Source of the DNA: an uncultured Gammaproteobacteria bacterium
Lineage (GTDB): Bacteria > Pseudomonadota > Gammaproteobacteria > UBA6429 > Thiohalophilaceae
DNA length: 64,000 bases
NCBI GenBank assembly: GCA_913064945.1
Contig: CAJYAN010000016.1
Coordinates: 1-64,000, forward strand
Direction of reading: 5' to 3'
Part shown: piece by piece, positions 20,165-40,735 of the stretch
How the letters are laid out: the number at the start of each line of letters is the position of its first letter
Numbering within the stretch: position 1 is the stretch's first letter
Position numbers and translations under genes: made by a program
The notes under the pieces: generated by a model
Database searches by the model: none
What the model saw: only the letters and a program-made list of their open reading frames with translations
Told to the model about the DNA's origin: nothing

Positions 20165-21690
<1,526 letters not shown>

Positions 21691-21692
21691 TT

Positions 21693-24600
21693 TTATGCTG
21701 CTCTGCGTTGTAGATCTTCCAGCAAGGAGGCCAGTTCCGCCGCCTTGGGTTTGACCAGCCAGAACTTGCCAATGCAATCGGCAAAGTTGTCCAGGATATA
21801 CTGGCCACGTTCGCTACCGGTCTCTTTGACAAACTCGGCGATGACTTCACGCAGGTGGTGGCGATGCGCCTCCATGTTTTCCGGCATGATACGCTGAATA
21901 TCGACATCCTGATTGATGCGGTCGGAGAAATGATTCTCTGCATCATAGACGTAAGCAAAACCACCGGTCATGGCGGCACCAAAGTTAATGCCGGTATTAC
22001 CCAGCACGGTCACTAGTCCGCCGGTCATGTATTCACAACCATGGTCACCGATACCTTCGACGACCGTATGACAGCCTGAGTTTCTTACCGCAAAACGTTC
22101 ACCGGCCAGACCCGCCGCAAACATCTTGCCACCGGTCGCCCCATAGAGGCAGGTGTTGCCAATAATGGTTGTCTCGTAGGACTTAAAGGTGCTTGCCTTG
22201 TGCGGATAGATTACCAGCTTACCACCGGCCATACCCTTACCGACATAGTCATTGGCATCACCTTCAAGATACATGTGCAGGCCACCGGCGTTCCAGACAC
22301 CAAAGCTCTGTCCTGCCGTACCGGTCAATCGTAAGGTAATAGGATTCGCTTCCATACCGAGATTACCGTGGCGGACGGCAATTTCACCACTCAGACGTGC
22401 CCCAATGGAGCGATGCGTATTACGTACGTCGTAATGGAATTCAGCACCACACTGTTGCTCTATCGCACTCAGGGCGTCACCGACCATTTGTTCGGCCAGC
22501 TCTCCCTTATCAAAGGGTTCATTAAACGGCGATATACAGAATTGTGGTTTGTCTTTGGCGACGCCCGCATCGGATAACAGCGCCGACAAGTCGAGCGACT
22601 GTTGCTTGTCTGTGCTGCCGTCGAGTTCCTGTAACAGGTCAGTGCGACCAATAATATCCGTCAGCTTACGCATACCCAGACTGGCCAGTAAACGGCGGGC
22701 TTCTTCAGCCACGAACCTGAAATAGTTCATGACCCACTGGACTTCACCTTTATAGAAGTCAGCACGTAATACATTGTCCTGGGTCGCAACACCGGTGGCA
22801 CAATTGTTAAGATGACAAATACGCAGGTACTTACACCCCATGGCGATCATCGGGCCGGTACCAAACCCAAAACTCTCCGCGCCCAGGATGGCCGCCTTAA
22901 TCACATCCAGCCCGGTCTTCAGACCACCATCGGTTTGCAGACGGACCTTGCCACGTAAATTGTTGGCGCGCAGGATCTGATGCGTCTCGGTCAGGCCAAG
23001 CTCCCACGGCGAACCGGCATATTTTACAGACGTCAGCGGTGAGGCACCGGTACCACCGTCATAGCCGGAGACGGTAATCAAATCCGCATAGGCCTTGGCG
23101 ACACCTGCCGCAATCGTACCGACCCCGGCTTCTGCCACCAGCTTCACTGAGACCAGGCCATCGGGGTTGACCTGCTTGAGGTCAAAAATAAGTTGTGCCA
23201 GGTCTTCGATAGAATAAATATCGTGGTGTGGTGGCGGCGAGATCAACGACACGCCGGGTTTACAGAAACGCAACTCGGCAATCAGGCCATTGACCTTGTG
23301 GCCGGGCAATTGGCCGCCTTCTCCGGGCTTGGCACCCTGCGCGATTTTGATCTGCATCACCTCTGCCGAGCGCAGGTAGGCCGGCGTCACACCAAAGCGC
23401 CCGGAGGCCACCTGCTTGATCTTGGAACGACGCACCGTGCCATAGCGCTCAGGGTCTTCGCCACCTTCGCCGGAATTAGAGCGAGCCCCAAGGGTATTCA
23501 TGGCCTCGGCCAGGGTTTGGTGGGCCTCGGGTGACAGGGCACCCAGTGACATGGCGGCTGAATCAAAGCGCTTGACGATCTCCTCGAAGGGCTCGACCTC
23601 TTCCAGTGGAATGGGGGTACTGCCTTCCCGTAAAACTAATAAGTCTCGCAAGTTAAGCGGTTCACGCTTATTGACGAGGTCGGCATAGACCTGCCACTTG
23701 CTATAGTCACCGGACTTGACGGCCTCTTGCATGCTGCGTACCACATCCGGGTTATAGGCATGGTCTTCACCACCGTGGATGTACTTGAGCAGACCACCCT
23801 GATGGATGGGTTTGCGTGGATTCCACGCCAGTTTGCACAGCAGTTTTTGATCTGTCTGCAGGTCTTCAAAGCGCATACCGGAGACACGATTGGTGGTGCC
23901 GGTAAAACACAGGTCGACAACGTCCTGGTGCAGGCCCACCGACTCAAACAATTGTGCACCACGGTATGAGGCGATAGTGGAGATCCCCATTTTCGAGGTG
24001 ACTTTATACAGGCCCTTGTTAATACCTTTACGATAGTTGGCCTCCAGCTTGCTCACGTCGCCATTTTTGATCTCGCCACTGTTGACCAGGTCATTCAGGC
24101 ACTCATAGGCAAGATAAGGATAGATACAGGTCGCGCCATAACCGATTAACACGGCAAAGTGATGCGGGTCACGTGCCGTCGCCGTCTCAACCACCAGGTT
24201 GGCATCACAACGCAGACCTTCACGCACCAGGCGGTGATGTACGGCACCCGTGGCCAGCAGTGCATGTACCGGGTAGGTGTCATCGCTAATGTCACGGTCA
24301 GAGAGTACTAACAGCACTTTGCCCGCCTTGATGGCCGCGGCGGCTTTATTAGCAATGTCCTGAATGGCGGTCCTGAGATCAACATCCTGTGCATAGTTCA
24401 GCGGGATGATCTCCGCCGCGTAGTCGGCCTCCGCTTGCGACATGTCCATTAGCTGTTTGAACTTGCCATGCGACAGGACCGGCGAGTCAATGAGCAAACG
24501 GTCAGCATTTTCCGGTGCCTCGACAAACATGTTGCGTTCACGCCCCAGGCAGGTCTCCAACGACATGACGATTTGTTCGCGGATCGGATCAATCGGTGGA

Positions 24601-26180
24601 TTGGTGACCTGTGCGAACTGCTGCCGAAAACTATCGAAGGGCGAGCGCACATGACGTGACAGTACCGGGAACGGCGTGTCATCCCCCATCGAGCCAATAG
24701 CCTCCTGACCGTCTTCACCTAGAATACGAAGAATTTCATCACGCTCTTCGAAGGTCACCTGAAACATTTTCTGATAGATATCTAGGCGGTCCGCATCCAT
24801 AAACCCGGTGGAGGCATCTTCTTCCAGTCGGGATTGCAGGCGTCGCGCACGCTCGGCCATCCACTTTTTATACGGGTGTGCCGACTTGAGCAGGTTGTCG
24901 ACGTCTTCCGGCATGAGCAACTCGCCGGTTTCAGTATCGGCGGCCATCATCTGGCCGGGCTTCAGGCGTCCCTTCATCACCACCTCTTCGGGCTGGTATT
25001 CATAGACACCGATTTCGGAGGCCAGGGTAATGTGACGGTCTTTGGTAATGACAAAGCGTGCCGGCCGCAGGCCATTGCGGTCCAGCGAACAGGCCGCATA
25101 GCGACCATCGGTCAGTACGATCCCGGCCGGGCCATCCCAGGGCTCCATGTGCATGGAATTACACTCATAAAAGGCACGCAGGTCGGCATCCATGCTCTCG
25201 ACATTCTGCCAGGCCGGTGGAATCAACAGGCGCATGGCGCGGAAAATACTCATACCGCCGGCGAGCAGGGCCTCCAGCATATTGTCCAGGCTGTTGGAGT
25301 CGGAGCCCGTCATGGAGACCAGCGGCCGTACATCGGCCATGGGGATCTTCGATGATTCAAACTTATGGCCACGGGCAACAGACCAGTTGCGGTTGCCCTG
25401 CACGGTATTAATTTCACCGTTATGCGCCAGATAGCGAAACGGTTGGGCCAGACGCCACTGCGGCCAGGTATTGGTGGAAAAACGCTGATGAAAGACGGCC
25501 AGGGCGGAGGCCATGTTTTTGTTACCCAGGTCCTGATAAAACACCGGCAGGTATTCCGGCATCACCAGCCCTTTATAGGAAATCACCCTGGATGACAGCG
25601 AGGGGATGTAGAACATCGCATCCTCTGGCTCGATCAACTTTTCGGTGCGACGACGTGCAATATATAAATGGCGTTCAAAATCCGTGCTGTCCATGCCAGC
25701 GGGGGCATTAATAAAGATCTGCTCGATTTGCGGGACCGTTTTAAGCGCCTCTTCACCACAGGCCTCGGGATTGACAGGCACCGTACGCCAGCCCGCAACC
25801 GCCAGGCCTTCTTTGCTGATCTCGCTCTCTAGCTGCTGGCGGGCGGTGGCGGCCAGGGTATTATCGGTATTCAGAAACACCATGCCAACGGCATACAGCT
25901 CGGTCAGTGTAAAACCAAGCTCGGCGGCAGCGGCCTTAAAAAAACTATCCGGTTTTTTCAGTAACAGACCACAGCCATCCCCTGTCTTGCCGTCAGCCGC
26001 AATGGCCCCACGATGGGTCATACGGCCCAGGGCCTTGATGGCCGTATCCAGGAGCCAATGGCTCGGCTTGCCGTCCATATGGGCAATCAAACCAAAACCG
26101 CAATTGTCCCGCTCGAAGGAAGGACGATATAAACCTTGTTTTTCAATCACTTGTCTTATCACGCCTGCGTTCTTTTGCAT
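21693..26180 (-). CDS. gltB: Glutamate synthase large subunit
   Basis: 1495 residues, full length. The glutaminase domain has its nucleophile Cys27 in [12 protein letters not shown], implying removal of a 26-residue propeptide. The central and FMN-binding synthase domains include [19 protein letters not shown]-like [12 protein letters not shown] and [12 protein letters not shown]. The 3Fe-4S site is [12 protein letters not shown], and the C-terminal beta-helix domain contains [13 protein letters not shown]. It makes glutamate from 2-oxoglutarate and glutamine. It is followed by gltD and preceded by the SPOR protein gene, the gene order I recall from Pseudomonas. Confidence 0.97.
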
Positions 26181-26314: not shown

Positions 26315-28600
26315 TTATCGCGCGGCATCCTGCAGGGACTCATGAATACTGGCGAAGCTACGTACCCAGGGCACCGCACGACTCAATGAAGTGGGCAGCC
26401 GGTTAATCGCCTGCTTGGCCCTGACACGATCCGGATAGCTGCCATAGACCAGTACATACCAGTCACGTCCATTACGACGGCTTTTGAATGCCGCCACCTT
26501 ACCCGCCAGACGGTGCTGCTGAATAAATTGCTTGATGCTGTCGCGCTGATAGGTACCAAACAGTTGCAGCGTAAAATTGCTAGGGTCCTGACTCCACAGC
26601 CAGGCCGTTTGTTCAGCCAGACCCGCGGGGATCGTGTCGTTCTTTAGCAGACTTATGGCCGAACGCGGTGCGACGGGACGACTACTGGCCTGACGGACAA
26701 CCGCCCTGGTTGATTTTAGCTGTTGTTGTAAATCTTTAAAGACCCGTATCCAGGGCCGAGACTTTTGCACTGCCGCTGGCAGTCGCCTGGTCGCCGCCTG
26801 CGCCGCCTCACGACTGGCGTACTCACCCTTGATCAGGACATAATGCCGTTGGCCTTTGACGAGGGTTTTGATAATCGCGATATCATTACCGTCCAGGTGA
26901 TTTTTCTTAATATAGCGCTCAACCGCACCCAGTTGAGATACGCTCAACAGCTGCAGAGTAAAGTGAGCTGCTGGACGCTGGTTAATCCATTTTTGGCCGT
27001 CGGCGACGGAGTGCGTATCACGTGGTGGTGTCAGGACACTAAAGGTATAACTGTTCGATACCTGTTTGCCATTGACCACATTGACCTTCCAGTCGTCCGC
27101 CTCGGTGCCCGTGGTAATCACTATATTCAACCTTTCCGGGCTTTCGAAAATCACCTGTGCATTACTCAATAACTTATTACGGCGACCCCATTGTAGCCGC
27201 ACCCTGGTGTCCTTGTTAAAGCCACTACCTAGAATCGAGACCGTCTGACGTTGATGGCTGCCAATAATCGGTTGTGGCAGAATACCTTGAATCTCTAATT
27301 TCTCTGCTGGCGTCGCGGAGGCGGCCATAAGATCCGCAGCTTCCGCAGTGACGGCCACGGTCTTTGTCGTGTTAGTCGCACTTGATTGCGGTGCGGTCTC
27401 TGGCGTCTCTTGCTTAGTGCTGACGGCATAACTCGCCGGATCCTTCTGTACGGCAGGCGCGGCCTGCTTATCCATTGAATCCAGCGCCATCGTGTCGGGT
27501 TGCAGTGCAATAATCTTTTCTTTCACCGAAGTTACAGGCGGTGCGGCGATATCAGGCGCGGGGGTTTTCGCCATGCGATTATCGACAGAGCTGGTGGTGG
27601 ACTGTTTATTGGGGTTAGGTAAGTTCGCCTCCAGGATTTGCTGGTCGACCTTACCGGCAAAGACTCGATTGATGTCTTTCTGATAGAACAGCACCAGGCC
27701 GATAATAATAATCGCCGCACTCCCCAGCACGATTCGCAGCGGTGTTAAATATTTTGTCACCGGGGCATTTCGCACTTCTGCCTCAAACACCACATCATCG
27801 GTCTCCGCCACAGCAACATCTCCTTTCTCCAGCAATTCATGGGCAAGCATATTAATTTTGCCTGGCTGGCCCTGCGAACCCTTGTAAATTTTTTTGACCA
27901 TTTTCGGTGTAAAAGGACTGGTGCCGTCAAAACCACTCACGGCAAGCCGATGTTTAATATACTCGGCCGTTTCTTCCTCACTGAGACCCGGCATTTCCAT
28001 GTGATGCGTAATACGATCACGCAGTGCTGAAATGGAGGGCGCATCGAGCATGGTTTCGATTTGCGGCTCACAAAACAGAATCACTCGTACCAGTTTGCCT
28101 CCCGCCGTCTCCACATCGGCCAGTTGAAAGACCATTTCCAGGGCATCCTGGGATAACTCATGTGCGTCATCGATAACAAGCAAGGGTATCCTGTCTCGTT
28201 CATGTAGACCGGCGAGACGCTGGTAAAGCTGTTCCTGGAGCTCGGCCGATGTCTGCGGCAGGTTTTCCACGGTAAAACCACGGCCAATCTGAAACAGAAG
28301 CTGTTCGGCATCCATCATGGTGTTGGCGGGGATCTGGCAGACCTGCCATTGTTCACTCAAATTCTGCAACAAACGCTGCATCAGCGCCGTCTTGCCGCTG
28401 CCACGCTCCCCGGTCACCATCAATAACAGGTCACTGTACTGAACCATGTGCTGCAGAATATTCAATCGCTGGGCGCGTTCGGGTTCGAGAAAGAAAAATC
28501 GGTCGTCGTGCGCGTCAGCAAATGGTGCCTCGCGCAGGCCAAAGCTGGCCAGATAGGATGGCGTTAGTCGATCCAGCGAATGTTGGTCATAGCCACTCAA
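26315..28600 (-). CDS. AAA+ ATPase, membrane helix, IPT/TIG-like and two SPOR domains (DamX-like)
   Basis: 761 residues from a TTG start that overlaps the WGR gene stop by 4 bases; the next Met is at residue 51. An ExeA/DamX-type AAA domain spans about 20-270 (Walker A GERGSGKTAL, Walker B LLVIDDAHELS). A membrane helix is at about 288-306, followed by a low-complexity linker. An Ig-like IPT/TIG segment (about 455-545) shows VSILGSGFNKDTRVRLQWG and WKVNVVNGKQVS. Two tandem SPOR repeats follow (HFTLQLLSVSQ.., NFTLQLFGTYQ..). SPOR domains bind denuded septal glycan, so a division-site role is likely. It occupies the damX position next to aroB. The IPT insertion and the SPOR pair are unusual. 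Confidence 0.85.
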   Translation of the reverse strand: MSGYDQHSLDRLTPSYLASFGLREAPFADAHDDRFFFLEPERAQRLNILQHMVQYSDLLLMVTGERGSGKTALMQRLLQNLSEQWQVCQIPANTMMDAEQLLFQIGRGFTVENLPQTSAELQEQLYQRLAGLHERDRIPLLVIDDAHELSQDALEMVFQLADVETAGGKLVRVILFCEPQIETMLDAPSISALRDRITHHMEMPGLSEEETAEYIKHRLAVSGFDGTSPFTPKMVKKIYKGSQGQPGKINMLAHELLEKGDVAVAETDDVVFEAEVRNAPVTKYLTPLRIVLGSAAIIIIGLVLFYQKDINRVFAGKVDQQILEANLPNPNKQSTTSSVDNRMAKTPAPDIAAPPVTSVKEKIIALQPDTMALDSMDKQAAPAVQKDPASYAVSTKQETPETAPQSSATNTTKTVAVTAEAADLMAASATPAEKLEIQGILPQPIIGSHQRQTVSILGSGFNKDTRVRLQWGRRNKLLSNAQVIFESPERLNIVITTGTEADDWKVNVVNGKQVSNSYTFSVLTPPRDTHSVADGQKWINQRPAAHFTLQLLSVSQLGAVERYIKKNHLDGNDIAIIKTLVKGQRHYVLIKGEYASREAAQAATRRLPAAVQKSRPWIRVFKDLQQQLKSTRAVVRQASSRPVAPRSAISLLKNDTIPAGLAEQTAWLWSQDPSNFTLQLFGTYQRDSIKQFIQQHRLAGKVAAFKSRRNGRDWYVLVYGSYPDRVRAKQAINRLPTSLSRAVPWVRSFASIHESLQDAAR

Positions 28601-28867: not shown

Positions 28868-30040
28868 CTATGTCAATTCAAGGGGATTAAAGATCCGACC
28901 ATATTCTTTAATCGCATACCGATCGGTCATACCGGCAATGTAATCTGCCACGATGCGTGCTCGGCCTGCTTCGGCATACTTGTTTTCAGCCTGCCGGGCC
29001 TTTTCTCGATAGGCCGGCGGCATCAGGCGGATATCCTGCATAAAGACATCAAACAATTCACGAATCACCTTCCCCGCCTTGTGGCTCATGCGAATAACAC
29101 GATAATGCCGATACAGGTTTTCGCGCAGGAATCGTTTCAGGTCCAGGTGTTGTTTCCACATATCTTCGCTGAAGCTCATGATGTGTTCCCCCTGCTGGCG
29201 TATATTATCAATGGTCTGCGGCGCAATCTGCTGAAGATTTTTCTGGCTCGCGGCGATCAGATCCTTAATCTGGGCGTCAATCATGCGTCGTACAATTTCA
29301 TAAATGACCCTTTTTTTCGCCAGTTCAGGATAATCTTTTACCACATCGGCATACAGTGACTTGAAGAGTTCTACTTCACGCAACTGTTCAATGGAGATCA
29401 GCCCCGCCCGTAGTCCGTCATCAACATCATGACTGTTATAGGCAATGGCATCGGCCAGGTTGACCATCTGTGCTTCGAGACCCGGCTGGGTCTTGTCGAT
29501 AAAACGCTGGCCTATATCGCCCAGCGCTTTCGCATTCTTAAGGGCACAGTGTTTTAAAATGCCTTCACGCGTTTCAAAGGTCAGATTAAGGCCATCAAAC
29601 TGGGCATACTTTTCTTCCAGCTTATCCACCACGCGTAAGGATTGCAGATTGTGTTCAAAGCCACCATAGTCCTGCATGCAGGCATTTAACATATCCTGAC
29701 CGGTATGACCAAAGGGCGTGTGTCCAAGGTCATGCGCCAGGGCGATCGCCTCGCTCAGATCTTCGTTAAGCCCCAGGGCGCGGGCAATGGTGCGGCTCAT
29801 TTGCGCCACTTCAATCGAATGGGTCAGCCGGGTACGAAACAGATCGCCTTCGTGGTTTACAAAGACCTGGGTTTTGTATTCCAGCCGTCGAAAGGCAGTC
29901 GAATGAATAATGCGATCCCGATCGCGCTGGAATTCACTGCGATGCTTGGGTGGTTCTTCTTTAAAACGTCGACCCCGCGAGTTGGCGTCGCTGGCGGCAT
30001 ATGAGGCAGGCATCATCATTCTCGCTGGCGTCTCAGACAT
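28868..30040 (-). CDS. dGTPase-like HD-domain triphosphohydrolase
   Basis: 390 residues. [22 protein letters not shown] is followed by the HD-domain metal ligands in [10 protein letters not shown] and [14 protein letters not shown], the signature of the dGTPase-like family (COG0232). Members hydrolyse dNTPs to nucleoside and triphosphate; the short form is usually annotated deoxyguanosinetriphosphate triphosphohydrolase-like. The ATG at 30040 overlaps the aroB stop by 8 bases. An upstream extension to 30091 would lie within aroB and is not needed. Confidence 0.93.
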
Positions 30041-31124
30041 CTGCCACCGCACGGTGGGCCTCGATGGTTTGTTGCAATGCCGACTCAGCATAATCGTCGC
30101 TAATGATCGCCTCGCTAATGGCCTTTAATAAGATAAAACGCAGCCGCCCGTCTTTCACTTTTTTATCAACGGCCATGTACTCCATGAACTGATGATAGTC
30201 CATTTTAGCCGGTGCCCGTGTTGGCAGGGATGCGCGGTCAATCAGATTTTCAACCCGCTGCACATCCGCGCTGGATAGCCAGCCAAGGCGCATGGACATA
30301 TCCGCCGCCATTAACATGCCCGTACCAACAGCCTCACCGTGCAGCCAGTTACCATAACCGGCGCCTGCCTCTATGGCGTGGCCAAAGGTATGACCAAGAT
30401 TTAATAGTGCACGTTGACCACTTTCCTTTTCGTCGGCCGCGACCACATCGGCCTTATTTTGACAGCTCCGCTCGATCGCCTCGGTCAGCACCGCGTCGTC
30501 GCGTGCCAGTAACTTATCCATATTGGCTTCGAGCCATTCACAAAAAGGCAGATCACGAATCAGGCCATACTTGATCACTTCCGCCATGCCTGCGCTTAGC
30601 TGTCGATCATCGAGGGTACTGAGTGTCTGCGTATCGGCAATCACACAATTGGGCTGATGAAATGCGCCAATCATATTTTTACCCAGTTCGTGATTGACCC
30701 CCGTCTTGCCACCGACCGATGAATCTACCTGCGCCAGCAGGGTCGTCGGAATTTGGATAAAATCGACACCGCGCTGATAACAGGCAGCGGCAAAGCCGGT
30801 CATGTCACCCACTACGCCGCCGCCCAGCGCAATCAGGGTACACTGGCGATCAAAGTGGTTTTCCAGCAGTGCTGTAAAAATCTGATTAAGGATACCCAGC
30901 GTTTTGTACTGCTCACCATCCGGTAAAATAACCGTTGCCAACTGGTAGCCGTGCAGGGCGGTTTCAACCTGTTTCAGGTACAGAGGGGCCACTGTCTCAT
31001 TCGTGACAATCATCACCTGGCGGCCTCTAATATAGGGCGCGTAATGTGCTGAGTTTCCCAGGAGACCCGGGCCGATAAAAATGGGATAGCTGCGCTGACC
31101 CAGTTCGACGTGCAGTGTTTTCAT
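30033..31124 (-). CDS. aroB: 3-Dehydroquinate synthase
   Basis: 363 residues. It converts DAHP to 3-dehydroquinate using NAD and zinc, the second step of the shikimate pathway. Motifs are [10 protein letters not shown], the nucleotide loop [36 protein letters not shown], and zinc ligands in [11 protein letters not shown] and WLHGEAV. It lies 49 bases after aroK and overlaps the dGTPase-like gene. Confidence 0.96.
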
Positions 31125-31173: not shown

Positions 31174-31704
31174 TCATTCGTTGTGGGGCTTTTGCTGAAT
31201 GCCATCCTTGACCATTTGCACCAGGTCACGCGCCGCCTGGCCGACCGAATCGGCCCCGGTGTCATAGACGATATCAGCTATCTGGCGATATAACGGGTCA
31301 CGAATCGCGAGTAACTCACTAATCCTGCCACGGGGGTCATCAGTCTGTAAAAGCGGCCGGTTCTTATCCCGATGAGTACGATCCAGTAATCTATCCACTG
31401 TGGCGTACAGGTAAATCACCAGACCGCGCGCCGATAAATGACGACGGTTATCATCATCCAGCACCGCACCGCCCCCCGTCGCCAGCACAATACCATCACG
31501 CTGCGTCAGGTCATCGATGACGACTGCCTCGCGTTTACGAAAACCTTCCTCACCTTCGATATCAAATATGGTGGGAATCGAGACACCCGTGCGCGTCTCG
31601 ATCTCATGGTCGCTATCCACAAACTCCAGATGCAAAGCGGCCGCCAGTTGGCGGCCGATGGTAGTTTTGCCTGCCCCCATGGGGCCAATGAGGAATACCT
31701 TCAT
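31174..31704 (-). CDS. aroK: Shikimate kinase
   Basis: 176 residues with P-loop GPMGAGKTTIG, shikimate-binding DSDHEIE and LATGGGAV, and lid segment RTHRDKNRPLL. It phosphorylates shikimate with ATP. It begins 6 bases after the stop of the unknown lipoprotein gene, so it is probably co-transcribed with the pilus operon upstream, as in many gammaproteobacteria where aroK follows pilQ directly. Confidence 0.96.
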   Translation of the reverse strand: MKVFLIGPMGAGKTTIGRQLAAALHLEFVDSDHEIETRTGVSIPTIFDIEGEEGFRKREAVVIDDLTQRDGIVLATGGGAVLDDDNRRHLSARGLVIYLYATVDRLLDRTHRDKNRPLLQTDDPRGRISELLAIRDPLYRQIADIVYDTGADSVGQAARDLVQMVKDGIQQKPHNE

Positions 31705-31710
31705 GTGGTA

Positions 31711-32856
31711 TTAGATTATACCAGTTAGATCTAATGTACCATCACCAATACCGACAGTAAGTACGTTAGTACCAGCAGCGCCAGTAAGTGTTATATCAAC
31801 TGACGCGCAGCCGCTCGTATTGGTCAAATATGTACTACCACTTTGAGGTGTTCCGGCCACATACGCCAGTGCTAAAGTCGCTGTACCACTCTTCTTAACA
31901 ATGCTAACCGCTGTAAATGGCACTCTACTCTTGTCACCACCATCAACGACACATATATCAACGCGCTGAGCAGTACCTGTTGAAGTCGTCCAGCTCGTTG
32001 GCGTCGCTGTAATTGTATACCCCGCAATGTTGGCAAAAGTAAATGTTGTCGACGCCGCTACATTACCGGAAGATGCGATGATATATGGAACGCCAGAACC
32101 AGTCGGTGTCCAGCGGGTATCCACCGAGGGATAACTACCGGACTGCGCATATTTTGGGTTTGAAGGGTAAGTCACATAGAATGTTCCGACACCTTCACCA
32201 TTTAGTGTCTCTACATAACCCGGAGTCGCTTTACTATTTTTATCAACTCCAGCAATACCCGCACCCAGCATTGAGGCCATGACTCGGTAGCTCGCTGCAG
32301 CATAGGTTGGGTAACTCTTAGTATATGCACTAGAAACCGTTAATGTATTTGCCGCGGTTGGTGCAGCACTAACATTTCGCAATACGTCAGCCGAATCACC
32401 GTTACTATATAAGAGGACAACATCATTGGCCTGGATACCACGTAAATTACCCCCGGATACGCCGTCTCTGGTAATCGTTGTTGTAGTCAAATCCGCAATG
32501 GCCGTACCATCGGCCTTTGTTGCACCGGGAAGCGTCAACGTCGTACCACTTGCGGTATTGGTTGCATTGAATGTACCTTGCGCAATAATACTATCGACCA
32601 CTTTCAGGTTGATTCGTGTGCCATCGGCAACGGGCGTGCCATTACTGTCACGCGCCAATAATGAAAATTTACGTTTATAAGTGCCATTTTTATTATCAGT
32701 AATAGCATTACTTTGCGGTGAGCTTATTACGATAGACTGTACATTGGAGGTACCTGTCTGTCCCGCAACAAAGCCACCACTATTACCACCGCCCCCACAT
32801 CCGCTTATGGCACTTGCAGCACATAACCCCGCAATAAATATCTTTAACTTACCCAT
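31711..32856 (-). CDS. Unknown lipoprotein with Ig-like region, inserted between pilQ and aroK
   Basis: 381 residues. The ATG at 32856 (MGKLKIF) is chosen because a GAGGAG ribosome site lies 7 bases upstream; an in-frame ATG 15 bases earlier overlaps that site. A lipoprotein signal with lipobox AISGC is followed by a GGGG linker. A beta-rich region follows, starting VQSIVISSPQSNAITDNKNG and including GTPVADGTRINL, resembling bacterial Ig (Big_1-like) folds. The rest is rich in Thr/Ser/Gly/Ala. By eye its DNA is more A/T-rich than its neighbours. I do not recognise a named family. Surface adhesin or pilus accessory are guesses. Confidence 0.8.
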   Translation of the reverse strand: MGKLKIFIAGLCAASAISGCGGGGNSGGFVAGQTGTSNVQSIVISSPQSNAITDNKNGTYKRKFSLLARDSNGTPVADGTRINLKVVDSIIAQGTFNATNTASGTTLTLPGATKADGTAIADLTTTTITRDGVSGGNLRGIQANDVVLLYSNGDSADVLRNVSAAPTAANTLTVSSAYTKSYPTYAAASYRVMASMLGAGIAGVDKNSKATPGYVETLNGEGVGTFYVTYPSNPKYAQSGSYPSVDTRWTPTGSGVPYIIASSGNVAASTTFTFANIAGYTITATPTSWTTSTGTAQRVDICVVDGGDKSRVPFTAVSIVKKSGTATLALAYVAGTPQSGSTYLTNTSGCASVDITLTGAAGTNVLTVGIGDGTLDLTGII

Positions 32857-32939
32857 GTTACTACTCCTCATGGTAACCGTTCTTACGGTTATAACTTTTA
32901 ATTAACATCTTATGTGTTGTGGTACAAACTGCCGCAAGT

Positions 32940-35081
32940 TTAAAAAACCTTATGCCCTTTAAGAATCTTGGGCGTTACAAAAATCAGGAGCTCGGACTTA
33001 TTATCGACTTCGCGTGTTTGACGGAATAGCGCGCCAATAATCGGTAAATCACCAAAGAAGGGAACCCGGTCTACATCGTGTGACTTCACCTGCTCGTAGA
33101 TACCACCAAGTACAACCGTCTGGCCATTATCGACCAGCACCTGGGTCTGTACCTTGCGCGTATCGATACTTGGAATACCACCAAAGACCTGGCCAACACT
33201 ATCTTTGTTCACCTTCAGGTCCATCACGACACGATTGTCCGGCGTGATTTGTGGCGTGACTTCCAGTTTTAAGACGGCCTTCTTGAATGAAATACTGGTC
33301 GCTCCACTGGAGCTGGCTTCTGCATAGGGAATCTCGACACCCTGTTCAATCAGGGCCTGGTGCGAATTTGACGTAATGACCCGCGGGTTCGAGACAATCT
33401 TGCCCTTGCCTTCGGTCTGTAACGCCGACAGTTCCAGGTCAACCAGGGTATTCGCGCTCAATACCGCCAGGGCAATCGAACCATATTGCGTGACAGTCGG
33501 CAGGTCGACATTGTAACGGTTCGCCTGAGTCGGCAATGACGTGATTGGATATGGATTATTGTTGGTATTGATGTTGTTATGCGCCTGCGTTATCAGTGTA
33601 TCGGTCGCAGCCGCATTACCGCTGATCGCCGAGACATCACCGTTCGCGGCCTGCTTGGTACTGGTAACACCAAACCGTACCCCCAGCTCTTTGGAAAAGT
33701 TATCATTTGCGATAACAATCCGTGACTCGATCAACACCTGCTTCACCGGCACATCAAGTTCACTTACCAGGTTTCGAATTGTATTTATTCGATCTTCTAC
33801 ATCGCTAATAAATAGCTTGTTTGTGCGGTCATCCACATTGATGCTACCACGGTCGGTCAACGTATTTTTTTGTTGTTTAATCATGGCGGCAATGGTGCTG
33901 GCCTTGGCGTAGTTCACCTGAATTGTCTCGTTGTATAACGGCGCTAATTCCTGAATCTGCTTATTGGCCTCCAGTTCGAGTTTCTCACGGGCGGCAATTT
34001 CTTCAGCCGGGGCAATCAGCATAACATTACCTTCACGCCGCTGATCCAGCCCCTTGGTCTTCAGGATCATGGCAAGAGCCTGATCCCAGGGAACATTCTT
34101 CAATCGCAACGTCAAGGTGCCGGTCACCGAATCACTGGTGACCATATTGATGCCGGTAAAATCAGCAATCAGCTGTAATACGGCACGTACTTCGATATTC
34201 TGAAAGTTGAGTGACAGGCGTTCACCGGTAAACTCAAATTTCTTTTTCTTTTTCTCGGCTTCACTATCTTTAATGATCGGCTTCACATCAATCGTAAAAT
34301 GATTATCCGTCTGGTAGGCAAGGTGATCGAAATCCCCCACGGCTGAGATCACAATCCTGACATCGGTACCATGTTTAAAGGTATCGACTGTTTTAACTGG
34401 TGTGGCGAAATCCAGCACATCAAGACGTCTCTCCAGTTTTTCTGGCAAGGCGGTATGTTGCACTGTCACGATAATCTGGTTACCCAGACGTTTCATATCC
34501 ACCGGGGTGCTGGGATCCCCCAGCGTGAGAATCACACGACCCTCGCCTTTTTCGCCACGGCGAAAATCAACTTTTTCCAATTCGCTACCCGGCTGCTGGG
34601 CATTCGCCTGAAACTGTGTCGGGATATTGGCCTTGATCTCATCCGCCCCTTCAACGCCTGAGCCATTCAGGGCGATAAGGACGGTATTCCCTTCGACCGT
34701 GGTTTTGTACGGGACGAGTTTATCGAGATTAATGACCACACGGGTACGTCCCCCGGCCTCGACAGCGGTAACACTCTGAGCAACGCCAACGTTTATATTT
34801 TGTTTCTTATTTGCGAGGTGACTGGTGGTGCCGGGGAAATCAAGCGCAATTCTCGCCGGGTTATCAATCGTAAAACTCCCCGGCTCCACGGCGGCGTCCG
34901 ACATGGTTAATTTAATTTGTACCCTGTCCCCTGGCAGCGTCGCATAGCTTATTTCGTCCAGACTGTTGGCGTAAACGAGTGTGGAAAATAGACCCATGAG
35001 GCCAATTAACGACATACGATAAATCATTTTCATATTCGAATTCTTTTTCATCACTATTAATTTTCTCATCATATTTATCAT
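32940..35081 (-). CDS. pilQ: Type IV pilus secretin PilQ
   Basis: 713 residues. A signal peptide (about 20-40) is followed by an AMIN peptidoglycan-binding region (about 45-135, possibly repeated about 165-265). An STN/N0 segment LSLNFQNIEVRAVLQLIADF and an N1 domain precede the secretin channel core, which ends with VPFFGDLPIIGALFR and LLIFVTPKIL. It forms the outer-membrane ring through which the pilus passes. GGAGAG 6 bases before the ATG supports this start, although it puts a long basic stretch before the signal. It is the last pilus gene of pilMNOPQ. Confidence 0.95.
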   Translation of the reverse strand: MINMMRKLIVMKKNSNMKMIYRMSLIGLMGLFSTLVYANSLDEISYATLPGDRVQIKLTMSDAAVEPGSFTIDNPARIALDFPGTTSHLANKKQNINVGVAQSVTAVEAGGRTRVVINLDKLVPYKTTVEGNTVLIALNGSGVEGADEIKANIPTQFQANAQQPGSELEKVDFRRGEKGEGRVILTLGDPSTPVDMKRLGNQIIVTVQHTALPEKLERRLDVLDFATPVKTVDTFKHGTDVRIVISAVGDFDHLAYQTDNHFTIDVKPIIKDSEAEKKKKKFEFTGERLSLNFQNIEVRAVLQLIADFTGINMVTSDSVTGTLTLRLKNVPWDQALAMILKTKGLDQRREGNVMLIAPAEEIAAREKLELEANKQIQELAPLYNETIQVNYAKASTIAAMIKQQKNTLTDRGSINVDDRTNKLFISDVEDRINTIRNLVSELDVPVKQVLIESRIVIANDNFSKELGVRFGVTSTKQAANGDVSAISGNAAATDTLITQAHNNINTNNNPYPITSLPTQANRYNVDLPTVTQYGSIALAVLSANTLVDLELSALQTEGKGKIVSNPRVITSNSHQALIEQGVEIPYAEASSSGATSISFKKAVLKLEVTPQITPDNRVVMDLKVNKDSVGQVFGGIPSIDTRKVQTQVLVDNGQTVVLGGIYEQVKSHDVDRVPFFGDLPIIGALFRQTREVDNKSELLIFVTPKILKGHKVF

Positions 35082-35102: not shown

Positions 35103-35663
35103 TCATTGACTCAGGCTTAGCGAAGCCTTGCGATCAACCCAACCACCAGCACCATCAGGGATAACTTCATTTATTTCAATTGAAGTCTCTGTAATAGAGG
35201 TAATCTTTCCGTAGTTTTTACCTATGTAGTTACCCACCTGAACCCGATAAACCGATTTATCAGGTGCGCTGATAAGTCCCCAACGAACACCACTCTTTTC
35301 CAGGTCACCGACAAAACTCAGTGTATCCAACGGAAATTGCTCCAGCGCTTCCCGCTTACGATTAACATCCGGGCGATTTGATGAATTCTCTGCGGGTATT
35401 TCATCAACATACGTGGTAAATGGATCACGATAATTATGCGCCTGATAGGCAAACACCTCATACGGTTTTACTTCCGGCAAGGCGGGTATCCTGCCTGACT
35501 TTCGGGCCTTCACTTCTTTCACATAGGCTTCAAGGTCACCATATTGATTACCGGAACAAGCCACCAACAGTAATACGGTCGAAAGCAATACCGCCTTTAG
35601 CGCAGCACCCGCCCATGGCGACATGTGATCTTGATCTTTCTTTTTGTTAGTGAAGTTCATCAT
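35103..35663 (-). CDS. pilP: Pilus assembly lipoprotein PilP
   Basis: 186 residues. A lipoprotein signal with lipobox LLVAC (Cys near 36) precedes a flexible Pro/Glu segment and a PilP core: FVGDLEKSGVRWGLISAPD, YRVQVGNYIGKNYGKI, TSIEINEVIPDGAGGWVDR. PilP links the inner-membrane PilMNO complex to the PilQ secretin. Two adjacent ATGs are possible starts. It is 9 bases after pilO and 21 before pilQ. Confidence 0.95.
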   Translation of the reverse strand: MMNFTNKKKDQDHMSPWAGAALKAVLLSTVLLLVACSGNQYGDLEAYVKEVKARKSGRIPALPEVKPYEVFAYQAHNYRDPFTTYVDEIPAENSSNRPDVNRKREALEQFPLDTLSFVGDLEKSGVRWGLISAPDKSVYRVQVGNYIGKNYGKITSITETSIEINEVIPDGAGGWVDRKASLSLSQ

Positions 35664-35672
35664 GTCCTCATG

Positions 35673-36299
35673 CTACCTTCTACCACGCTTTTTTCTGCCT
35701 TTCTTCTGGGCCTTGCTGATTTCATTTTCATCCAGGTAACGATAGGTCTTCGCCATCACTTCCATCGTCAGCTTGCCATCTTTTCCCGGGCTGATACTGA
35801 TGTTATGCAACGTGACGATTCGAGGTAGCGCCGCAACACCACTTACAAAGTCGCCAAACTGATGATAGGTTCCCGTCAATTTCATGCTAATGGGAAACTC
35901 CGCGTAGAAATCAATAAACCGTTCACCCTGTGGCTTGAACAATTGAAACTCGACTCCACTGGCGAGGCCCGTCTGCGAAATATCCACCAGAAGTTCTTCT
36001 ACCTCGGTCTTACTCGGCAGCTGACGGAGCATGGTACCGAAGGACGTCTCCATCTCTTTCATTTGCGCCTTGTATTTATCCAGCGCAGCGGCCTTGGACT
36101 GTTTGGTTTCAAAGTCCGTCTTTAGTTGTAGCTCCGTCCTTTTGGCCCGCTCAAGGTTCTCCTGCTCACCCTTGATGTCCAGGAAATAGCCCAGCAACAG
36201 CACGATAATACAGACAATAACAATAACAGCGGCCTTTACTGGGATCGGCCAGGCGCCAATATTATTAGGGTCAAGATTATTTAAGTCTTCAAATTTCAT
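35673..36299 (-). CDS. pilO: Pilus inner-membrane protein PilO
   Basis: 208 residues. One N-terminal membrane helix (about 25-43), a coiled-coil (about 48-90) and a ferredoxin-like periplasmic domain with QLFKPQGERFIDFYAEFPIS. It pairs with PilN in the alignment subcomplex. A short basic tail (KKGRKKRGRR) ends the protein. It sits 21 bases after pilN. Confidence 0.94.
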   Translation of the reverse strand: MKFEDLNNLDPNNIGAWPIPVKAAVIVIVCIIVLLLGYFLDIKGEQENLERAKRTELQLKTDFETKQSKAAALDKYKAQMKEMETSFGTMLRQLPSKTEVEELLVDISQTGLASGVEFQLFKPQGERFIDFYAEFPISMKLTGTYHQFGDFVSGVAALPRIVTLHNISISPGKDGKLTMEVMAKTYRYLDENEISKAQKKGRKKRGRR

Positions 36300-36320
36300 C
36301 TCACATACATCCCTAACGAA

Positions 36321-36886
36321 CTAGCCGCCTTTTTTCACGTTAACATTCGTCACTTGCTTGACGTTTAACTTAAAGCTTCTGGCACCATCCGCGGCTGCCT
36401 TCTTTTCTGACTCGATTATTTTCAGGGTCGGCTTCGTCAGCCAGGGCGAACTATCCAGGTTCCGCATGAACGCCGATACGCGCGCATTTGACTGGGCTAC
36501 CCCCTCAATATCCAGGTCGTGTCCTTTCTGGGTTAATTTCGTCAGATAGACACCATCCGGTAATACTCTGGCAATCTCATCGAACAGGTGCACAATCTCA
36601 GGACGGTTGCGCTGTAACTGCTGGATGATGTCTATACGGTCCTGCAGGCGTTTGCGTTCACGGGCCAGATTATTAATTTCCTTAATCTGTGCCTCAACCT
36701 TGACGATTTCCCTCTTCAGGTATTCGTTGCGTGAATTTTGTACACCAATCGCGCGCGCCACCTGTAAATGCACCGCGACTAAAATCAGCGCGACCATAAA
36801 CACGGAGAGAACCGTGACCGACAAAAATTGCTTTTGTAGTTCCTTGCGTCTCTCTTCACGCCAGGGGAGTAAATTAATCATTGCCA

Positions 36887-36887
<1 letters not shown>
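36321..36887 (-). CDS. pilN: Pilus inner-membrane protein PilN
   Basis: 188 residues with the conserved cytoplasmic start INLLPWREERRK that docks into PilM. A membrane helix is at about 24-44, followed by a coiled-coil and a periplasmic domain. The ATG shares its last base with the pilM stop, so the two are coupled. Confidence 0.95.
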
Positions 36888-38022
<1,135 letters not shown>

Positions 38023-38149: not shown

Positions 38150-40735
38150 ATGAAATTTCAGGCAAAAAAGTTCTTTTTTATCTCCAGCATGTCGTTTGCC
38201 GGTCTGTTTCTCGCCGGGATGATGACCCTCATCGGGATTTATGCCTATCTGGCACCATCACTCCCCGACATCGATACCCTGAAAGATATCCAGCTGCAGG
38301 TACCACTCCGGGTACTCACCAAAGAAGGTAAATTAATCGCCGAATTCGGTGAGATGCGGCGGACACCGCTGGAATATAACCAGTTCCCGCCAATGCTCAT
38401 CAAGGCCATTCTGGCGGCTGAGGATTATCGCTTTTTTGAACACCCCGGCGTCGATTATCAGGGTATCCTGCGTGCCGCCCTCAATCTCGTGCGTACTGGT
38501 GATCGCTCACAGGGCGGCAGTACGATTACCATGCAGGTCGCGCGTAACTTCTTTTTGAGTAGTGAAAAAACGTTTTTACGCAAGTTCAATGAAATATTCC
38601 TTTCCCTGAAGATCGAACACGAACTTAGCAAGCAGGACATCCTTGCCCTGTATATGAATAAAATCTATCTCGGTAAACGCGCCTATGGCTTTGCGGCAGC
38701 GGCGCAGGTGTATTATGGCAAACCGGTAAACGATCTGAGCCTGCCACAACTTGCCATGATTGCCGGCCTGCCGAAGGCCCCCTCGCGCTTCAACCCGGTG
38801 GTCAATCCAGAGCGTGCAACCCTGCGCCGAGATTATGTCCTGGGCCGTATGCACGACCTGCAATTTATCTCGACTGCTGATTACGAGGCGGCAAAAAACA
38901 CCACCGATAATGCCTCAGTACATTCCCTCGTTATTCAAACTGAAGCGCCCTACATTGCCGAAATGGTCCGCAGTGAAATGGTGAAATACTTTGGCAATGC
39001 GGCCTACACCGATGGCCTGCAGGTCTATACCACTATCGATTCAAAACTCCAGACCGCGGCGAATCAGTCTTTGCGCGATGCACTACTGGCTTATCAGCGC
39101 CGGCATGGTTATCGCGGTGTAGAAAAGAATGTCGATCCCTATTCCGGCACCAGCGCGGACGATATGACCAACTGGGATGCCATCCTGAGCGACGTGCCGA
39201 AGGTGAGCGGCCTGCAGGCGGCCATTGTATTTGAAGTGGACGACCAGGATGTCTATGCCTATACCGATGAGGGTAATGTGGCTTATATCCCCTGGGAAAA
39301 GCTTAATTGGGCCCGCCGTTATATCTCGGAAAATCAGGTCGGTCCCGAGCTACAAAAAGCCAGCGACATCCTGAAAGTCGGCGATATTATTCGTATCACC
39401 CCCGGCCGTACAGGTTGTACCTGGCTGGCACAGATTCCCGAGGTATCAGGCGCACTCGTCGCCTTACGTCCCGATGATGGCGCGGTGCTATCGCTCACTG
39501 GTGGCTTTGACTTTTACCACAGTAAATTTAATCGGGTGATCCAGGCCAAGCGCCAGCCGGGATCCAGCTTCAAACCCTTTATCTACACAGCAGCACTGGA
39601 CAAGGGCTATACCACGGCCAGTATTATTAATGATGCCCCTGTGGTCTTCGATGCCCCTGGCCTTGAAGACACCTGGAGACCGGAGAATTATAGCGGTAAA
39701 TTCTTTGGCCCCACCCGTTTACGGGTCGCCCTGATTCATTCACGCAATCTTGTCTCGATACGGTTACTGCGCGATATCGGCATCGGTTATGCGGTGCGCT
39801 ACGTTACCCGCTTTGGCTTCAAGCGTGCCGACCTGCCACGTAACCTGTCCCTTGCGCTCGGTAGTGGGGCGATCACGCCAATGGATCTCGCGACGGGCTA
39901 CGCCGTCTTTGCCAATAATGGTCACCGGGTTCAGCCCTATTTTGTCGACCATATTCTCGGCCCTAACAACGAAGTCATCCTGCAGGCCAACCCTGCCCGT
40001 GTCTGTCGCGTCTGCCCTGAGCCAGGCGAAGATCAAAAAGCCGCCCCCAGCACTGATGAAAAAACTCAGGCCGATGCCCCGGCACCTCCTGTCGAACCGG
40101 TAGACGCGACAACAGCGTCGCCCGTCGCGACACCAGCCGCACAAAGCATTTCCGGCAGGCAACAGGCGCTGATGTTACCGGGGAAATACTGGGATGGCAT
40201 GGAAAACATCGATGGCCCCCCCCAGCTGCGTCGCGCCGAACGCGTCCTGTCACCACAAACCGTTTTTCTGACCAACACCATGCTACGAGATGTGATTCGC
40301 CGTGGTACAGGACGTCGCGCCCTGCAGCTGGGACGTAAAGACCTTGAAGGTAAAACGGGCACCACAAACGACCAGCGCGATGCCTGGTTCTCGGGCTTTA
40401 ATCGCAATATCGTCACCATTAGCTGGGTTGGCTTCGACAACCCGAAACCGCTTGGCAGTCATGAAACCGGTGCCATCGCGGCCCTGCCAATGTGGACTGA
40501 GTTTATGCGTACGGCCTTACATGGCATGGCGGAAACACCACTCGAACAGCCCCCCGGACTGGTCTCCGTCCGAATTGATGCCAAGACCGGCCACCCCGCC
40601 AGTGCCGATAACAAAAATGCAATTTTTGAATATTTCCGTGCCGATCACGTGCCAAAGAGCAACAATGTTAGCGGCAATAATACGCCGACACAAAACGACA
40701 CCAACTCTGAAAACATTACCGAGCAATTATTTTAG
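38150..40735 (+). CDS. mrcA: Penicillin-binding protein 1A
   Basis: 861 residues. A membrane anchor (about 8-32) is followed by a GT51 glycosyltransferase (about 55-230, catalytic Glu in AAEDYRFFEHPG, and RNFFLSSEKTFLRKFNEI) and an OB-like insert (about 315-425). The transpeptidase has nucleophile Ser472 (SSFK), SRN and Lys735-Thr-Gly. It polymerises and crosslinks peptidoglycan. A Pro/Ala/Asp-rich insert (about 625-665) sits within the transpeptidase region. It is divergent from pilM, a typical gammaproteobacterial arrangement (also called ponA). Confidence 0.95.
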   Translation: MKFQAKKFFFISSMSFAGLFLAGMMTLIGIYAYLAPSLPDIDTLKDIQLQVPLRVLTKEGKLIAEFGEMRRTPLEYNQFPPMLIKAILAAEDYRFFEHPGVDYQGILRAALNLVRTGDRSQGGSTITMQVARNFFLSSEKTFLRKFNEIFLSLKIEHELSKQDILALYMNKIYLGKRAYGFAAAAQVYYGKPVNDLSLPQLAMIAGLPKAPSRFNPVVNPERATLRRDYVLGRMHDLQFISTADYEAAKNTTDNASVHSLVIQTEAPYIAEMVRSEMVKYFGNAAYTDGLQVYTTIDSKLQTAANQSLRDALLAYQRRHGYRGVEKNVDPYSGTSADDMTNWDAILSDVPKVSGLQAAIVFEVDDQDVYAYTDEGNVAYIPWEKLNWARRYISENQVGPELQKASDILKVGDIIRITPGRTGCTWLAQIPEVSGALVALRPDDGAVLSLTGGFDFYHSKFNRVIQAKRQPGSSFKPFIYTAALDKGYTTASIINDAPVVFDAPGLEDTWRPENYSGKFFGPTRLRVALIHSRNLVSIRLLRDIGIGYAVRYVTRFGFKRADLPRNLSLALGSGAITPMDLATGYAVFANNGHRVQPYFVDHILGPNNEVILQANPARVCRVCPEPGEDQKAAPSTDEKTQADAPAPPVEPVDATTASPVATPAAQSISGRQQALMLPGKYWDGMENIDGPPQLRRAERVLSPQTVFLTNTMLRDVIRRGTGRRALQLGRKDLEGKTGTTNDQRDAWFSGFNRNIVTISWVGFDNPKPLGSHETGAIAALPMWTEFMRTALHGMAETPLEQPPGLVSVRIDAKTGHPASADNKNAIFEYFRADHVPKSNNVSGNNTPTQNDTNSENITEQLF

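Follow-up and report, generated by a model that had tools for sequence, protein, structure and literature searches.

In Escherichia coli, the gene following aroK and aroB is damX. In the 64,000-nucleotide stretch of DNA analysed here (the window), the corresponding place is taken by a gene for a membrane-spanning ATPase, which raises the question whether its product serves cell division, the pilus machine encoded alongside, or both. The gene (26315..28600, minus strand) was confirmed as an open reading frame of 761 amino acids. It begins with a TTG codon directly preceded by the purine-rich GGAGAGGGAAG, a good ribosome-binding stretch, and an alignment of family members revealed that the start residue is common to the window protein and its relatives. 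According to the reading frame, Pfam and the predicted structure, the protein consists of an AAA+ ATPase, a membrane helix, a linker, an IPT/TIG domain and two SPOR domains. This order had been proposed by an initial annotation and was borne out by Pfam, AlphaFold2 and a structural match. The AlphaFold2 prediction of the whole protein, for which 26 aligned sequences of the family served as input, gave 10-residue blocks mostly with pLDDT values above 90 in the ATPase and in residues 435-523, 547-620 and 676-748; the pTM of the whole model was 0.41, and it supports the single domains, not their mutual arrangement. Chance or an annotation artefact was ruled out, since 24 complete relatives from the family, with approximately 37-41% identity, share the order.

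The cytoplasmic part of the protein is an AAA+ domain (AAA_22; residues 14-262, 27815..28561, minus strand). Pfam detected AAA_22 at residues 56-185 (E 1.2e-19, 71.4 bits, cut-off 27), and the nearest folds found by VIA-align were ORC/Cdc6, MuB and TnsC chains, with a Z score of 19.6 to ORC/Cdc6. G64, G69 and K70 of the Walker A motif (GERGSGKT, residues 64-71, 28388..28411, minus strand) are invariant in the 26 sequences, while residue 71 is either T or S. In Walker B (residues 139-145, 28166..28186, minus strand), D144 is present in 25 and D145 in 24 of the 26 sequences. The score above the cut-off together with both Walker motifs places the domain among the AAA+ proteins, and its general type is ORC/ExeA-like. 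R196 (28013..28015, minus strand), an arginine in 24/26 sequences, is a candidate arginine finger, judged by its place in the motif. The closest curated model is the XrtA/PEP-CTERM-associated ATPase TIGR03015, but with 141.7 bits against a cut-off of 324.5 the window protein does not belong to this family. Four paralogues of the TIGR03015 kind are encoded elsewhere in the same genome. Paralogous AAA_22 ATPases of this genome (L038, 1138-2385, minus strand; L040, 1468-2763, plus strand) are fused to FHA domains and possess no wall-binding arm.

The second acid of Walker B deserves attention, as it is D and not E. ExeA-type ATPases often carry E at this position, and the strong conservation of D145 might thus indicate a structural tether that binds ATP, hardly hydrolyses it and ties the inner membrane to the septal wall. 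However, STAND-type NTPases use DD as well, and Walker A and the candidate finger are strongly conserved. We therefore regard a mere tether as improbable.

A single membrane helix (residues 287-305, 27686..27742, minus strand) was predicted by AlphaFold2 and coincides with a hydrophobic stretch. It is followed by a periplasmic linker (residues 316-431, 27308..27655, minus strand), disordered as judged by its pLDDT values below 50 and its poor conservation. The IPT/TIG beta-sandwich comprises residues 435-523 (27032..27298, minus strand). In the window protein itself, the Pfam TIG profile (PF01833) remained below its cut-off (residues 437-521, 15.7 bits, cut-off 20.9); among the aligned family members it matched in 12 of 26, with a best E of 1e-7. 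When residues 430-527 were predicted alone, eight strands were obtained (pLDDT 95.7, pTM 0.86), and the best match among solved structures was the IPT/TIG domain of EBF3 (3muj; Z 12.4, rmsd 2.1 over 87 residues), whereas a profile search with the TIG domain against the sequences of solved structures returned nothing below E 0.35. By its predicted structure, the segment has the IPT/TIG fold, which rules out a sequence artefact. The initial annotation had recognised this fold at residues 455-545; the presence of the domain stands, its limits had been set some 20 residues too close to the C-terminus. Its description as adhesion-like is unsupported, since its expected location is periplasmic, with the inner membrane on one side and the SPOR domains on the other.

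Two SPOR stretches (PF05036) were detected by Pfam with a family E of 1.6e-20, SPOR 1 at residues 544-620 (26741..26971, minus strand) and SPOR 2 at residues 673-748 (26357..26584, minus strand). Each of them exceeds the curated cut-off of 21 on its own, with 42.5 and 41.7 bits, respectively. Q351, W416 and K418 of DamX have been shown to matter in DamX or were deduced from RlpA-glycan structures (PMC6895207). The equivalent of Q351 is kept in 26/26 and 25/25 relatives in the two SPOR copies, that of W416 in 25/26 and 23/25, and the basic residue at the position of K418 is R throughout in both copies. Thus both domains, whose reality had been put up for structural confirmation, are well supported by the AlphaFold2 model and the conserved glycan-contact positions. 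Together with the known biochemistry of SPOR domains, these residues suggest that both copies would bind glycan devoid of stem peptides, and it is from the SPOR domains that the label "septal", given to the protein by the initial annotation, would derive. In SPOR 1 of the window protein, V and H replace the R380 and W385 found in most relatives, and the branch of this copy in a SPOR tree is longer than that of SPOR 2, so it may bind more weakly. The same tree (62 domains, 88 columns) leaves 39 of its 59 inner branches open and does not settle the origin of the tandem. Elsewhere in the genome, a Sel1-repeat protein of 207 amino acids (L006, 1468-2091, minus strand) possesses a C-terminal SPOR domain 37% identical to SPOR 2.

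The order of genes in the window is mrcA (divergent), pilM-N-O-P-Q, a gene for a 386-aa protein, aroK, aroB, dgt, the AAA-TIG-SPOR-SPOR gene, gltB, gltD and hemE. Three neighbours were identified by family models: the mrcA-type class A penicillin-binding protein of the PBP1A family (38150..40735, plus strand; TIGR02074, 578 bits, cut-off 508.75), the secretin PilQ (32940..35081, minus strand; TIGR02515, 529 bits, above the cut-off) and the dGTP triphosphohydrolase Dgt (28868..30091, minus strand; NF002326, 624.7 bits, cut-off 390). The names of pilP, pilO, pilN and pilM (35103..37957), aroK (31174..31704), aroB (30033..31124), gltB (21693-26180) and gltD (20165-21616), all on the minus strand, were given by reading, position and their mutual conservation. 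Most relatives on a sufficiently long contig exhibit the order pilQ-aroK-aroB-dgt-X-gltB-gltD-hemE, X denoting the gene in question; in some, dgt is absent from the locus or gltB is more distant. For the 386-aa protein between pilQ and aroK (31711-32871, minus strand), Pfam gave no match; its N-terminus (AASAISGCGGGG) is lipobox-like. In most relatives, aroK lies close behind pilQ and leaves no space for this gene.

In E. coli K-12, mrcA is divergent from hofMNOPQ-aroK-aroB-damX-dam. The window gene thus occupies the place of damX, as had been claimed from the start, within a block pilMNOPQ-aroK-aroB-dgt-X-gltBD in which gltBD and not dam follows downstream. This identical position downstream of aroK-aroB invites the view that the protein is a true orthologue of DamX, which acts in division, is localised to the septum by its SPOR domains and stimulates class A penicillin-binding proteins in (pre)septal wall synthesis, with the ATPase as a tuning device and the pilus genes as mere neighbours. 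SPOR 1 matches the SPOR domain of E. coli DamX with 39% identity (E 2e-15), both proteins are bitopic with a C-terminal SPOR domain, and a gene for an mrcA-type penicillin-binding protein lies beside the pil or hof genes in both genomes. Moreover, E. coli DamX binds and stimulates PBP1B, for which its membrane region is required; by contrast, PBP1A, the type encoded in the neighbourhood, is not stimulated (PMC7642682). Further points speak against this view. E. coli DamX has neither AAA+ nor TIG domain and only one SPOR domain, the window protein reached only 86 bits against the equivalog cut-off of 256 of the NCBI DamX family (NF008153), confined to the SPOR region, and the known phenotype of an ATPase-bearing relative, Pseudomonas aeruginosa PA5037, is a pilus phenotype. 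A plain DamX role is therefore rather unlikely.

PA5037 (PA14_66580) resembles the window protein in its ATPase annotation, its SPOR domain and its location near pilMNOPQ (PMC9712689, PMC6321873). It has been named a DamX homologue (PMC9712689) and also described as an ExeA-like ATPase (PMC6321873). The comparison is one by papers only, which describe PA5037 with SPOR and mention neither TIG nor a second SPOR domain, and its presumed orthology is taken from papers, position and domains. Deletion of PA5037 resulted in less twitching and fewer polar pili, while PilQ multimers were normal; its authors suggested that the protein stabilises the secretin or helps the other subcomplexes to form (PMC6321873). 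ExeA, an AAA ATPase with one membrane helix, binds peptidoglycan and multimerises on it, and its ATPase is needed (PMC4098917). The window protein shares with ExeA/GspA of Aeromonas type II secretion the cytoplasmic AAA ATPase, the single helix and a periplasmic wall-binding part (PMC4098917). ExeA/GspA differs by another wall-binding domain, its partner ExeB and its membership in a type II secretion system. Among the 25 families listed for the window protein, down to E ~0.07, the ExeA-type peptidoglycan-binding domain is absent; the SPOR domains stand in for it. By these tests, the protein is a SPOR protein with an AAA+ ATPase, ExeA-like in plan and DamX-like in position. It might be asked whether it is a secretin-assembly factor for PilQ, exactly as ExeA/GspA. 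The same type of ATPase, the shared overall plan and the vicinity of pilQ would fit, but the lack of the ExeA-type domain and the normal PilQ multimers of the PA5037 mutant make this very improbable. In any case, an ATPase tied to a wall-binding domain is not in itself new, given the published PA5037 phenotype and the plan of ExeA.

How common this kind of protein is was estimated from an even draw of the class Gammaproteobacteria, which yielded 83 aroB loci with enough flanking sequence, the window and one TIG-TIG genome being counted on top. With home-made profiles, 36 loci revealed AAA-SPOR, three SPOR without ATPase, two AAA-TIG-SPOR-SPOR, two AAA-SPOR-SPOR and one AAA-TIG-SPOR; the remaining 39 showed no AAA/SPOR gene, though divergent copies are possible among them. 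Hence 36 of the 44 SPOR genes have the plan AAA-helix-SPOR, and on these counts an ATPase with one SPOR domain is the usual state in Gammaproteobacteria and the window form a minority elaboration. It is E. coli DamX, without AAA and TIG, that is the unusual form. Proteins of the usual kind at the same locus in Sulfuriflexus (L066), Methylophaga (L078) and Thiodiazotropha (L118) share the ATPase, the SPOR domain and the gene neighbourhood with the window protein, but have one SPOR domain, no TIG and a length of ~500-570 amino acids.

A match to the window protein was found in 40/40 genomes searched in its taxonomic order, and every aligned full-length member of its family has the order AAA-TIG-SPOR-SPOR. 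The search for this order, which the initial annotation had suggested, also succeeded sporadically elsewhere in Gammaproteobacteria (L059, L064, L065, L166), so uniqueness to the window genome is ruled out. Outside the family, the home-made profiles disclosed a series of AAA-SPOR, AAA-SPOR-SPOR, AAA-TIG-SPOR, AAA-TIG-SPOR-SPOR and AAA-TIG-TIG-SPOR-SPOR, with two SPOR domains and no TIG in L157, L158, L160, L163 and L164. Relatives of ~960 amino acids with two TIG followed by two SPOR domains (L155, L156) belong to one other family of the class. A complete genome encodes a protein of 650 amino acids with TIG and a single SPOR (L159, 8428-10377, plus strand); its pilQ lies elsewhere on the chromosome, yet aroB-dgt-X-gltB is retained. 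L162 (8746-11024, plus strand) contains two overlapping SPOR-bearing frames and no ATPase, in a genome whose aroB locus also carries an AAA-SPOR gene of the normal kind (L191). A tree of the ATPase domain requires four changes for the presence of TIG and two for the SPOR number; as its between-group branches are weak and its outside rows were hand-picked, it does not fix the number of gains. Among the openly accessible papers searched, none joins "SPOR domain" with "TIG domain", and tandem SPOR domains within one protein are unmentioned, which is weak evidence of absence. The parts are thus known and proteins of the DamX/PA5037 kind common in gammaproteobacteria; of the novelty initially claimed, the TIG domain plus the second SPOR holds, whereas the union of ATPase and SPOR is ordinary at this locus.

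The best explanation, to which we assign a probability of roughly 0.45 and which we rank above a plain DamX-type division role, is an ATP-switched inner-membrane scaffold at the septum or young pole that would assist in installing the type IV pilus machine or keeping it in place and perhaps stimulate septal wall synthesis. This reading is suggested by the PA5037 phenotype, the ExeA plan, the gathering of pilus parts at division sites and the action of DamX on PBP1B taken together. In P. aeruginosa, wall-binding AMIN domains bring PilMNOPQ to the sites of future division (PMC5285504), the same sites at which the glycan read by SPOR domains is made. The conserved order pilQ-aroK-aroB-(dgt)-X, the conserved residues of both Walker motifs and of the finger, and the glycan-contact positions kept in both SPOR domains support the scaffold reading. 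PilQ was found upstream in 35/36 sampled loci with AAA-SPOR and scored above the cut-off in 26 of 28 carrier genomes, the exceptions being a genome 77% complete and a contig ending at the gene. However, PilQ is also upstream in 31/39 loci without any AAA/SPOR gene and in 3/3 with SPOR alone, so the linkage may merely reflect an old gene block. As a test of a pilus role it does not discriminate, since PilQ precedes nearly all aroB loci anyway. In addition, the pilus effects of PA5037 might stem indirectly from a defect at the septum.

As a bitopic scaffold that follows the ExeA plan and binds the wall through SPOR domains, the protein would act as follows. The AAA+ domain, by its fold and intact motifs, may oligomerise in the cytoplasm in an ATP-dependent manner, while the helix and the long flexible linker would bring the arm into the periplasm. 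There, the two SPOR domains would bind the stem-peptide-free glycan that arises at the division septum and presumably persists at young poles, with the tandem providing avidity, and TIG might serve as a rigid spacer or offer a partner a surface for docking. Septum and new pole would thereby be marked, and the pilus machine encoded alongside installed or stabilised during pole formation. Stimulation of a class A penicillin-binding protein, as known for E. coli DamX, is a possible second or older activity.

Large envelope machines must somehow enter the wall at new poles, and parts of the type IV pilus are known to assemble where the cell will divide (PMC5285504). Much of Gammaproteobacteria encodes, in the same gene block, a conserved ATPase with readers of septal wall; this little-studied protein is a concrete candidate for connecting division and wall synthesis with the placement of pili. 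Naturally occurring forms with one or two SPOR domains and none, one or two TIG domains offer ready variants to show what each module contributes. For the TIG-tandem-SPOR form, a more specific though doubtful proposal is that of an installer coupled to division: a ring or patch, switched by ATP and fixed to septal glycan by the two SPOR domains, would hold the pilus alignment complex through TIG. If this were true, pilus machines would be held at the forming pole and inherited with the new pole.
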